From Thermoproteota archaeon (GTDB lineage: Archaea > Korarchaeota > Korarchaeia > B14-G2): a DNA stretch of 5,159 nt. Below are positions 219 to 4,992 of this stretch, piece by piece (position 1 is the stretch's first letter; the number at the start of each line of letters is the position of its first letter). Where the stretch lies: assembly GCA_003661385.1 (NCBI GenBank), contig QMWA01000133.1:1-5159 (forward strand), given 5' to 3'. Position numbers and translations under genes: made by a program. The notes under the pieces are model-generated. The model saw only the letters and a program-made list of their open reading frames with translations. It made no database searches and was not told the DNA's origin.

Positions 219-1427
219 ATGATGTGGGCTAGTGATGTTCTTAGTTTGCTGAATCCCTGGTGGGAGGGGGGGCGTAGCCCTACTGTTGAGGAGTGGGAGG
301 ATAAGGAGGTTAGGTGGAGGCCTAGCTGGCTTAGGCAGTTGAGTTTGGAGCCCTTCTCTCTTAACATAGTGGTGGGGCCTAGGCTTGTTGGCAAGACTAC
401 AGGGCTCCACCTTCTGGTGGAGGAGCAGCTTTCTGCTAGGGATCCTCTCTCCATTCTATACTTGAACTTGGATCTTGCTTTCAGCTTGGAGGCGTTTAAG
501 TCGCTTATAGACGCCTACCTTAGGATGAGGGAGGCTAGAGGGATAGGGAGCAGCCTGATTATACTCGATGAGGTAACTAGCATCCAGGGGTGGTGGAGGC
601 TTGTGAAGGGGTATGTGGATGCTGGTGTATTCAGAAGGGATGTGCTGATTCTTACAGGCTCATCTTCTCTGAGGCTGAAGGGTGAGGTTGAGCTTTTCCC
701 TGGGAGGATGGGTAGGGGAAGGGAGGTAACTGTCTACCCTCTCTCATTCAGAGAGTACCTGGCTGTGAGGGGGATTGAGGTTGAGGCTTCTGGAAGCCTT
801 GAGGATGCTGATGTTCTTCTCCCGCAGGCTGGGAGGATAAGGGGGCTGTTTGAGGAGTATATGGAGACTGGAGGCTTCCCTCTCTCAGTGAACAGGGACC
901 CTAGGGCAGTGGAGTACTTCATAAGGTCGCTAGAGGGGGAGGTGCTTAGAGTTGGCAGAAGCCTCGACTTAGCTAGAGGGGTGCTCTCCAGCATCCTAAG
1001 GGCAGCTCCCTCCCCAGTCTCCTTCAACTCCATAGCCTCAAGCCTATCCATATCCCACAGGACTGTCAGAGAATACGTTGAGCTGTTGTCAGGCTTAATG
1101 GTCTTAGGCCAAGCCCTCCACTTGGACAAGACCCCTAAGTTCAGGAGGGAGAGGAAGTTCTTTCTAAGAGACCCATTCCTAGCCAGAGCCATATCGATGT
1201 GGACGGCAACAGAGATCTTAGAGCCGGCCCTCTACGAGTGGGTTGTCCAAGAACACCTCCTCAGGAAGTTTGGAGCCGTCTACTACCAGAGAGACTCCTA
1301 TGAGATAGATGTACTAGCAGACGACCTTAGAATTGAGGTGAAAGCCGGCAAACCTCGCAGAAGATATCCTAAGAGGGTTAAGGTACTAGATAAAGAGAAC
1401 CTCCCTCTATTCCTAGCTCTCATCTAG
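219..1427 (+). CDS. AAA_14/DUF4143-type P-loop ATPase with PD-(D/E)XK-like C-terminal domain
   Basis: A 402-residue cytoplasmic P-loop ATPase of the kind annotated as ATP-binding protein, AAA_14 followed by DUF4143. Walker A is GPRLVGKTT at about 53-61 and Walker B is SLIILDEVT at about 112-120. A sensor-like LILTGSSS lies near 143-150, and a GRMGRGREV...PLSFREYL segment typical of the family at about 162-181. A helix-turn-helix-like region lies near 268-298 (SIASSLSISHRTVREYVELL). The C-terminus carries EID (362-364) and EVK (373-375), the core of a PD-(D/E)XK nuclease fold. Length is normal for the family. No signal peptide or membrane segment is seen. The start is set by the TATA spacing; the second ATG at 222 is equally possible. 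The biological role of this family is poorly defined; it is patchily distributed and often strain-variable. Substrate and partners cannot be inferred here. Codon choice shifts from G/T-ending to A/C-ending along the gene. Confidence 0.93.
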   Translation: MMWASDVLSLLNPWWEGGRSPTVEEWEDKEVRWRPSWLRQLSLEPFSLNIVVGPRLVGKTTGLHLLVEEQLSARDPLSILYLNLDLAFSLEAFKSLIDAYLRMREARGIGSSLIILDEVTSIQGWWRLVKGYVDAGVFRRDVLILTGSSSLRLKGEVELFPGRMGRGREVTVYPLSFREYLAVRGIEVEASGSLEDADVLLPQAGRIRGLFEEYMETGGFPLSVNRDPRAVEYFIRSLEGEVLRVGRSLDLARGVLSSILRAAPSPVSFNSIASSLSISHRTVREYVELLSGLMVLGQALHLDKTPKFRRERKFFLRDPFLARAISMWTATEILEPALYEWVVQEHLLRKFGAVYYQRDSYEIDVLADDLRIEVKAGKPRRRYPKRVKVLDKENLPLFLALI

Positions 1428-1642: not shown

Positions 1643-2767
1643 CTAGCTGTACTCCACTTCCCTCCACTCTCCTCTCTCTAGCTTCAGAATTTTTAGGCCT
1701 GCTTCAGCTACCCTCTTGAGGAAGTCTTCAGCTGGGATTGCTGCTTCAGGTGGATGTACTCCAGGCTCATCTAGCTCACGTGAAGCGAGCATCATGGCTC
1801 CTAGTGCAGCTGGTATGGAGGTGAGCCTCCACATCCTATCGACCATCCCATAGGTCAAGGTCACCTCCTCTCCTTTGAGCTCTCCTGAGACATCTACTCT
1901 CAGGCCGCTTGCCTGGACTCCTCCAGCTCTGAACAGGTCTTCTATGCTGTGTATTATCTTGGAGAGCTTCCTCTTCCTCCCAGGTGTCTTCGTGAGCCCA
2001 AGCTTGACAAAAAGGGCTACAAGGGAGTTCTGCCACTCTGGTACTAGGGCTCCCTTCAGTGTGACCCTCTCCACCTTGAGGTGCTTTGGTATTGTGACTG
2101 GCTCAGGGTGCCCTGTATAGAATACTTTAACTTCTCCGAATGGCTTTGGGAAGAGCTTAGGTTCCTTTCCGCTTCCAGCCTCAACCTCCTTGAGTTCGCC
2201 GTCGAGGTACATTGGGACCTTGCCTGTGCATGCGTGGAATACGTGCATAACTACGGCAAGCCCCTTGGAGTCTGCTGCTGAGCCAACCCAGCTTATGTCG
2301 ATGCTCCTACAGCTGTCAAGCTCCCTATGCCCTTTGGCAGCGAGGAGGTTGCTCAGCCCTGGGGTCCAGCCTAAGCCTGTGATGCAGGTGACACCAGCCT
2401 TGGCGGCCTCGCTGCTGAGCTCAAGTGAGGCCATGGCTCCATCATAGTCATCGCATATGTCAACCAAGGGGACTCCAGATTTGATAGCAGCTTCAACAAC
2501 AGGCCTAGCAAGCTCGTAGAATGGCCCTATGGCGCCTACAGCAGAGTCGACCCTCTCCTTCCTCAAGGCTTCAGCTAGCTCACTAGGCTTGCTGGCATCA
2601 GCCTTAACACACCTCACCTTCCCCCTGAGCTCACCAAGCTCGCCTAAGGGGGCTCTCTCAGGCCTCAAGTCGAAGACCACGACCTCCTCAACCCTCTCCT
2701 GCCCAGCTAGAAACCTCACAGCACCAAAACCCATGTCACCAGCTCCACCAAGAACCCCCACCCTCAT
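1643..2767 (-). CDS. Saccharopine-dehydrogenase-like NAD(P)-dependent oxidoreductase
   Basis: From the ATG at 2767 this is a 374-residue protein of the saccharopine dehydrogenase family. The N-terminal Rossmann motif is GGAGDMG at residues 7-13, with a hydrophobic strand ending in Asp near residue 33 (VVVFDL), which favours NAD(H) over NADP(H). LVDICDDYD and GLGWTPGLSNLLA match the family's conserved central segments, the latter equivalent to the usual GxDPGxxNLLA. No signal peptide or membrane segment is seen, so it should be cytosolic. Family members oxidise or form secondary amines in lysine or polyamine metabolism, but no neighbouring gene indicates a pathway, so the substrate is unknown. 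The frame stays open 38 codons upstream to 2881; I reject that extension because it contains the TATA box and is not protein-like. A leaderless GTG start at 2776 (adding VPD) is a real alternative; a GGTG six bases before the ATG supports 2767. Confidence 0.92.
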   Translation of the reverse strand: MRVGVLGGAGDMGFGAVRFLAGQERVEEVVVFDLRPERAPLGELGELRGKVRCVKADASKPSELAEALRKERVDSAVGAIGPFYELARPVVEAAIKSGVPLVDICDDYDGAMASLELSSEAAKAGVTCITGLGWTPGLSNLLAAKGHRELDSCRSIDISWVGSAADSKGLAVVMHVFHACTGKVPMYLDGELKEVEAGSGKEPKLFPKPFGEVKVFYTGHPEPVTIPKHLKVERVTLKGALVPEWQNSLVALFVKLGLTKTPGRKRKLSKIIHSIEDLFRAGGVQASGLRVDVSGELKGEEVTLTYGMVDRMWRLTSIPAALGAMMLASRELDEPGVHPPEAAIPAEDFLKRVAEAGLKILKLERGEWREVEYS

Positions 2768-2796
2768 GTCAGGCACCACATGTAACACCCACTGCA

Positions 2797-2804
2797 CTTT
2801 AAAG
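2797..2804 (-). promoter_or_regulatory. TATA box for the saccharopine-dehydrogenase-like gene
   Basis: CTTTAAAG on the minus strand. Its centre is 33 bp before the ATG at 2767 and about 24.5 bp before the in-frame GTG at 2776. Transcription should start near 2776, giving either an 8-9 nt leader containing GGTG or a leaderless GTG start. Confidence 0.5.
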
Positions 2805-2952
2805 AAGATGCCTACAGCGTGCCTGGCGCGCAGTAGGGCACTACACTCCCAGAGCGAGCCTACAGTAGCAGATGAAGCCATCCAATAAAGCCAGCTACAG
2901 CCCCGCTGAAGAGCCTATCTACCTCAATGGGCATGGAAGCTTGTGACATGAT

Positions 2953-3303: not shown

Positions 3304-4250
3304 TTATGGTGATAGAAGCAAGCTGATGCAGCTCAGCACTATGGATGCTGCAGAGAGCACAACTGCAATTGCCAGCCACTTGCTCAGGGATGCAAGCTTC
3401 CTGCTTGTCTTCAAGCTGAGCTCGCTCAGCTTAGCAGCCTCCATCGAGCTATCTGCCTCCGAGATCACCCTCACTGCTTCAGGAGGGTATCGAGCTGAGA
3501 GCTTCAAGTACCTCCCTTCACCTCCACCTCCAGCTGCAGCAGCAACTTTCCTACACACGTCATCGTACGTTACCAAGTTGAACCTCCCGCCATCGAGCGT
3601 AAAAGGCTTGACATAGCTCCTGACATCAACCCCACGCAGCTTCTCGATAACAAGCTCCCTGACAACCTGTGAACCCACCCTCCTCTTCAACAGGACAATG
3701 ATGCCATCAACCATGTAGTCTAGGGGAGACTCTCCAACACTCTCACTCACAAGCACCATGTGAGCTCCAGCCTCACATGCCATATTGATCAAAGAAGACT
3801 CCAAGCTGCTTCCAGCACCCACGCTAGCCTTAAGAGCCTCAATGCTGTCTACAACAATGTAGATAGGCCTATCTGCTGCAGCAATCCTGCTATGAAGCAC
3901 CTGAAGGAAGGCAGGTTGATCAAAGTACTTAAACTGCAGCTCGCCACTAACTCCACTAAAGGTGGACAGCTTAGTGGCATCAAGGACACTACTCCTCTCC
4001 ACAGCCTCCTTCAGCCAGGGAAACTGAGCAAAAAGCTTGTCAGGAGACACTCTAGCTGACAGGTAGACTCCACACCCTCCTCCACCAAACTCCCTCAGAA
4101 TCTCAAGAGCAAGAGTAGTCTTACCAGTGCCAGGAGCACCCTTAATCAGAAGAGAGAAGCTTCCAGGAAGGCTAAAGGCATCATAAAGCTCCTCTGGCAG
4201 GCGCCTACCCAGCTTCCAGCTCTCCGCCGGGGGGGGGGTGCCGAGGCCAT
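3304..4250 (-). pseudogene. KaiC/RAD55-like ATPase with C-terminal membrane anchor; frame broken at a poly-C tract
   Basis: A RecA-superfamily ATPase of the KaiC/GvpD/RAD55 group. Walker A is GAPGTGKTT (about 38-46 of the restored protein), read from 4139 down to 4113. Walker B is IYIVVDSIEAL. The order SLLIKGAPGTGKTT, hhhhDSIEAL, LDYMVDGIIVLLKR, ELVIEKLRG, PFTLDGGRF is typical of KaiC-like domains. A flexible AAAAGGGGEG linker and a helical segment lead to a final hydrophobic span (WLAIAVVLSAASIVLSCISL), so the protein is probably tail-anchored with the ATPase in the cytoplasm. The ATG at 4250 has AGGAGG five bases upstream and a TATA box, but the frame holding Walker A is offset by one base across ten C (4229-4238). 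As written, translation from 4250 ends after 34 codons at a TGA (4148-4146). Eight or eleven C would restore the frame, eleven giving 315 residues. The Walker A frame has no ATG/GTG/TTG start of its own; the GTG at 4050 lies past Walker A. Whether this is phase variation, slippage, decay or sequencing error is open. Confidence 0.85.
4229..4238. other. Ten-base homopolymer (G on top, C in the coding strand)
   Basis: The tract lies in codons 5-8 of the KaiC-like ATPase gene, encoding prolines, 12 bases after the ATG. It is the only long homopolymer in the window and coincides exactly with the frame break. Long C/G runs mutate easily by replication slippage and are also misread by some sequencing platforms. 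Confidence 0.9.
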
Positions 4251-4255
4251 AAGAA

Positions 4256-4261
4256 CCTCCT
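4256..4261 (-). promoter_or_regulatory. Shine-Dalgarno AGGAGG deciding the ATPase start
   Basis: On the minus strand, AGGAGG is followed by TTCTT and ATG. This is the best ribosome-binding site in the window and shows that the ATG at 4250 is, or was, the true start, although it is out of frame with the ATPase domain as sequenced. Confidence 0.75.
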
Positions 4262-4284
4262 AAGGCTCAGATACAGCCCCCAGG

Positions 4285-4291
4285 ATATAAA
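4285..4291 (-). promoter_or_regulatory. TATA box for the KaiC-like ATPase gene
   Basis: TTTATAT on the minus strand, centred at 4288. Transcription would start near 4263, leaving a 13-14 nt leader that just includes the AGGAGG at 4256-4261. The gene thus has its own promoter rather than depending on the FmdE-domain gene upstream. Confidence 0.6.
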
Positions 4292-4536: not shown

Positions 4537-4992
4537 CTATGGCTCTAGGAGCTCCTCGAACATAGTGTGGAGCTCCTGTCTCATGCACCACCTGCTGGCC
4601 TCGGTCAGCCCGCTTTCAGATGATATTTCTTTTATTCTGCTCCAGACCCATGGCTTAAGCTTGAGGTGTAGGGTTCTCCCCCTGCAGGTGAAGACGTACT
4701 CTATTTCCTCTGGGCTTCTAACGGGCTCTAGCTTGATGTTCAGCTTCCCTAGGGTGCAGCCTGCTGCCACCTGGATGCCATCAGCTGCACACGTGAATGG
4801 AGTGCTCAGCGGAGCCCTCACAACACAAGACATCTCAAACACAGACCTCGGCTCCAGAACCTCTACAGCCCTCCAACCAGCCCTATACCCGAGCACAAGC
4901 CACGGCCCCTCATGCCCATGGAAGACAGCAGCCACCCTGATGGTAAGCTGCCTCCTATCATCCCACGAGTAGCATGAGGCTTCACCAGGCAC
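4537..4992 (-). CDS. FmdE-domain protein (formylmethanofuran dehydrogenase subunit E-like)
   Basis: A 151-residue soluble protein with a stand-alone FmdE domain. FHGHEGPWLVLGYRAG (24-39) is the family's N-terminal signature and CAADGIQVAAGCTLGK (68-83) its second. His25, His27, Cys68, Asp71 and Cys79 are candidate metal-binding or active-site residues by family analogy. The residue after HGHE is Gly29, where methanogen-type members have Cys (HGHxCPG). The family is named after a subunit of molybdenum formylmethanofuran dehydrogenase, but stand-alone members occur in many non-methanogens with unknown function. No other methanofuran gene is present, so a role in methanogenesis should not be assumed. 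No C-terminal zinc ribbon follows; the end is a charged helix (127-151). The GTG at 4992 is the only plausible start: a TAG lies two codons upstream. GGTG eight bases before it is a possible Shine-Dalgarno; no TATA box is seen at leaderless distance. Arginine codons are AGG in the first half and mostly AGA in the second. Confidence 0.88.
   Translation of the reverse strand: MPGEASCYSWDDRRQLTIRVAAVFHGHEGPWLVLGYRAGWRAVEVLEPRSVFEMSCVVRAPLSTPFTCAADGIQVAAGCTLGKLNIKLEPVRSPEEIEYVFTCRGRTLHLKLKPWVWSRIKEISSESGLTEASRWCMRQELHTMFEELLEP

Follow-up and report, generated by a model that had tools for sequence, protein, structure and literature searches.

The window analysed here, 5,159 nucleotides long, makes up the entire contig C133 of an archaeal draft genome (G000), which comprises 1,739,738 bases in 206 contigs and is 91% complete. 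At its centre of interest lies a frame for a KaiC/GvpD-type ATPase that has no start codon of its own. A homopolymer of ten cytosines (C10) stands at its 5′ end, and a short frame with a start codon, a Shine-Dalgarno sequence and a TATA-like element lies on its upstream side (Table 1). The neighbouring genes encode an AAA_14/DUF4143 ATPase, a saccharopine dehydrogenase-like protein and FmdE, and their frames are open.

Table 1. Features of the window, numbered from the first letter of the contig.
Feature	Position	Strand	Remarks
AAA_14/DUF4143 ATPase gene	219-1427		neighbour, frame open
Saccharopine dehydrogenase-like gene	1643-2881		neighbour, frame open
Start-less KaiC/GvpD-type ATPase frame	3304..4230	-	stop included; Walker A GAPGTGKTT, Walker B IVVDS
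C-terminal hydrophobic stretch SKWLAIAVVLSAASIVLSCISLLLSP	3307..3384	-	possible tail anchor; read from translation
34-codon frame from ATG, as assembled	4149..4250	-	stop codon next
C10 homopolymer	4229..4238	-	ten G on + strand
Start codon ATG	4250-4248	-	read directly
Shine-Dalgarno AGGAGG	4256..4261	-	read directly; 5 nt ahead of ATG
TATA-like element TTTATATC	4284..4291	-	read directly
FmdE gene	4537-4992		neighbour, frame open

The translated ATPase frame exceeded the curated cut-offs of two Pfam profiles, GvpD_P-loop (PF07088: 6e-14, 52.7 bits, cut-off 24) and KaiC (PF06745: 4e-13, 49.8 bits, cut-off 26.6), and it matched KaiC chains both by profile and by fold. With both Walker motifs and a RecA/KaiC fold, the protein resembles the GvpD P-loop/KaiC-like ATPases and is classed here as a RecA-fold ATPase of KaiC/GvpD type. 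Assignment to the circadian clock KaiC was rejected, as the score was 28 bits against an NCBIfam equivalog cut-off of 408 and one ATPase domain only is present. The predicted structure had a mean pLDDT of 71, the core being confident and the last 75 residues not. Most full-length aligned homologues in the class continue into a second, degenerate half, whereas the ATPase of C133 ends in this low-confidence stretch with its hydrophobic tail, where a helix was predicted at model residues 295–306 with low pLDDT. The initial annotation had described a ‘membrane-anchored KaiC-like ATPase’; the KaiC-like part held, and membrane anchoring is a possibility raised by a single C-terminal hydrophobic stretch. 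The genome has two further KaiC-like paralogues. In a KaiC-like paralogue on contig C17 (L132:2860-2990), homology extends upstream of the first in-frame ATG, directly behind a short upstream frame.

The TATA-like element is preceded by an A-rich, BRE-like AGTAAAG and lies ~25 nt upstream of AGGAGG, which would put the transcription start near 4261. As assembled, the frame from the ATG encodes MASAPPPRRRAGSWVGACQRSFMMPLAFLEASLF (34 aa) and then stops. The KaiC frame is bounded by a TGA that lies upstream of the ATG and by the stop at 3304; it stays open for ~310 codons and contains no ATG, GTG or TTG ahead of Walker A; the first such codon is a GTG at 4050. Tract lengths congruent to 2 modulo 3 (8 or 11) join the ATG to the KaiC frame and give 314 or 315 aa. 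That is, the position of the tract lets changes in its length shift the ATPase body in and out of frame, and the coding sequence downstream of the tract is otherwise intact, with an open frame and its Pfam and fold matches. The 11 codons after the tract scored −0.8 when read in the KaiC frame, against −5.2 and −5.5 for the two alternative frames, which weakly favours coding in the KaiC frame directly after the tract. A conserved RNA structure at the start was not found, the 5′ region folding no better than shuffles (z −0.05). The initial annotation had placed the promoter, Shine-Dalgarno sequence, ATG and ten cytosines at the right coordinates, all read on the minus strand. Translation likewise confirmed its claims that a stop closes the ATG frame after 34 codons, that 8 or 11 C would join this start to the KaiC frame, and that the KaiC-like gene downstream is intact.

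The C10 tract is unusually long for this genome: no other C or G run in the 1.74-Mb draft reaches nine. Pattern counts, after subtraction of overlapping matches, gave 65 tracts of exactly C7, two of C8, none of C9 and one of C10, and no A8 or T8 run occurs anywhere in the draft. Of 200 dinucleotide shuffles of the window, 3 contained ten consecutive cytosines, so the tract exceeds chance expectation for the window; under an independent-base model such a tract would not be very rare at this genome size. Its status as an outlier is relative to the genome’s own steep drop from seven to eight C. Among 748 proline codons in sampled long ORFs, CCC (127) and CCG (63) were in the minority; thus, codon preference does not explain CCCCCCCCN. 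About 30 C7 and C8 tracts were inspected, and all lay within frames of at least 100 codons, many of them several hundred codons long, though a spanning open frame is no proof of being the coding frame. These loci and the pattern counts are the basis of our genome-wide statements, and they speak against a general homopolymer error in the assembly.

Comparisons covered 26 genomes of the class and 29 of the phylum, among which there was no genus- or family-mate of G000. No orthologue above 43% identity was found in the genomes searched; the nearest homologues were 35–43% identical and had no proline stretch. A search of the genome contigs with the ATPase protein returned no relative, and a contig search with a four-sequence alignment returned 13 loci, of which most were archaeal and distant and two matched over short stretches only.

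A cousin gene in two genomes of one genus (G017 and G019), from the same class as G000 and a different family, also carries a tract near its 5′ end. Here an SD-like GGTG and an ATG are followed after 24–29 nt by G9 in G017 or G7 in G019, and in both genomes the ATG and the KaiC-like frame lie one nucleotide out of register. In a genus-mate (G014), the tract position is occupied by mixed glycine codons and the ATG is in frame. Such a repeat was seen in these cousin genes of one genus; the remaining homologues with 5′ ends examined, none of them an orthologue, had none. In G017 and G019 translation could instead begin at a TTG behind the tract, which the stop of the short frame overlaps, and translational coupling is thus an alternative there. 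G017 has three C or G tracts of nine or more in ~2.9 Mb; by a rough, post-hoc and unsimulated estimate, the chance of a tract of at least nine within the first 60 nt of the cousin gene is ~10^-4 in that genome, and by the same kind of estimate ~10^-3 when all the homologues considered are counted. A comparable homopolymer, out of frame in the cousin gene of a second genus, lends support to a slippable tract.

Of the 26 genomes of the class, 18 have C or G tracts at least nine long. Among the stretches fetched, some of these tracts were intergenic, some stood at contig ends and some lay inside long open frames; long tracts are therefore not specific to switches. One intergenic poly-G tract has 17 residues in G002 (L100:4001-4017) and 11 in G001 (L103:4001-4011), with aligned flanks ~96% identical, a difference between two related genomes that favours slippability. 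Of 394 archaeal genomes searched for C tracts, seven had GGAG and an ATG followed within 30 nt by at least C9, and C133 was the only case in which a start-less frame longer than 150 aa came next. Elsewhere, a C10 in G011 (contig C12, L112:1794-1803) parts two frames (142 aa and ~380 aa) of a membrane protein without a Pfam match, for which no orthologue was found in the class. A CHAT-domain gene of G017 (contig C24, L121) was considered as a second example and rejected, its C9 being upstream of the ATG and not between ATG and body; this C9 (L121:2795-2803) stands right behind a TATA-like element and upstream of an 890-codon CHAT-domain frame, and the nearest ATG is out of frame. In G015 (contig C25, L116:3001-3024), C14-T-C9 follows right behind TATATAAA, without a long gene downstream on that strand. 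A G9 in G004 (contig C1, L119:3001-3009) lies between repeats that resemble a CRISPR array.

Several other accounts of the interrupted frame have to be weighed. The tract may have slipped once (for example, from 11 to 10), leaving the gene off, in an event too recent for the rest to have decayed. The intact ATPase body is what a recent event requires, the two paralogues might cover the function, and singleton frameshifts are usually put down to indels or errors of sequencing (PMC3711429). A one-way loss would leave the similar tract of G017 and G019, likewise out of frame, to be explained separately, and we consider such a loss unlikely. An error in the consensus, with a true tract of 8 or 11 C and a gene that is simply on, is likewise improbable in our judgement. 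The draft is fragmented (206 contigs), ten cytosines are its longest C or G homopolymer and so the hardest to read, and several long C tracts of the class stand at contig ends. However, frames stay open across the C7 and C8 tracts of the same assembly, and the G7 of G019, short enough to read easily, is also out of frame with its ATG.

Some full-length protein could also come from the ten-C allele with no change in the DNA, if transcription slips along the C run or ribosomes shift frame by −1. Ten cytosines could let RNA polymerase or tRNA-Pro slip, and a review lists −1 frameshifting in archaea (PMC5009743). The direction of the offset differs, however: C133 needs −1 or +2, whereas G017 and G019 need +1 or −2, which fits poorly with one conserved programmed shift. 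Together with the shuffle-like folding of the 5′ region, this makes recoding quite improbable. Least credible of all is that translation of the ATPase starts not at the ATG but at a CTG that follows the tract in the KaiC frame, with the 34-codon frame acting as an upstream ORF. Homologues do begin a few residues ahead of a conserved (L)PxEL motif, and the C17 paralogue is likewise without an ATG, GTG or TTG upstream of its homologous N-terminus. Yet CTG start codons are rare in archaea, the Shine-Dalgarno spacing suits the ATG, and the codon scores after the tract weakly favour the KaiC frame.

Given the anatomy of the locus and its parallel in a second genus, the leading explanation is a slippable switch. 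We give a probability of roughly 0.45 to the reading that C10 is a real, mutable homopolymer which joins or separates the start codon and the ATPase body by replication slippage (phase variation). Slippage at the tract would connect or part the two; the assembled consensus would represent the OFF state, with its 34-aa peptide, and alleles of 8 or 11 C would encode the full protein. Tract length would be expected to vary between cells, such variation would be reversible, and it may be kept by selection as a switch. Read from one consensus sequence, C10 and the related G tracts suggest a mutational on/off switch. The initial annotation had spoken of a ‘phase-variable contingency gene’; the layout and the intact gene agree with this and the tract of the cousin gene supports slippability, while switching itself is not demonstrable from a single consensus. 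Among the genomes of the class, a NucS-family match above cut-off was seen in G000 (contig C14, L151) and, of the other 25, only in G017; some mismatch repair may thus act in G000, a point against the switch.

Slipped homopolymers are a familiar cause of phase variation in bacteria, and to our knowledge one hardly documented in archaea. The C133 locus resembles bacterial poly-C and poly-G contingency genes in having a homopolymer just after the start codon, an intact body and a frame set by tract length. It differs in belonging to an archaeon, in encoding a KaiC-like ATPase and in being known here from a single consensus length. The logic of placing tracts at 5′ ends was described by Orsi et al. 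2010 (PMC2831843), in whose account the over-represented tracts of prokaryotes are mainly poly-A/T and not poly-C; poly-C and poly-G tracts in type III methyltransferases are cited in PMC3711429. A 2025 review states that the distribution of phase variation across archaeal phylogenies awaits expansion (PMC11868660). A broader and doubtful proposal is that a lineage of archaea, probably Korarchaeia, might turn KaiC-like signalling ATPases on and off reversibly through slippage of poly-C/poly-G tracts at the 5′ ends of their genes, switches that would have evolved in at least two genera. The C10 tract in a regulatory-type ATPase, with its parallel in another genus, offers a concrete locus for testing archaeal phase variation.
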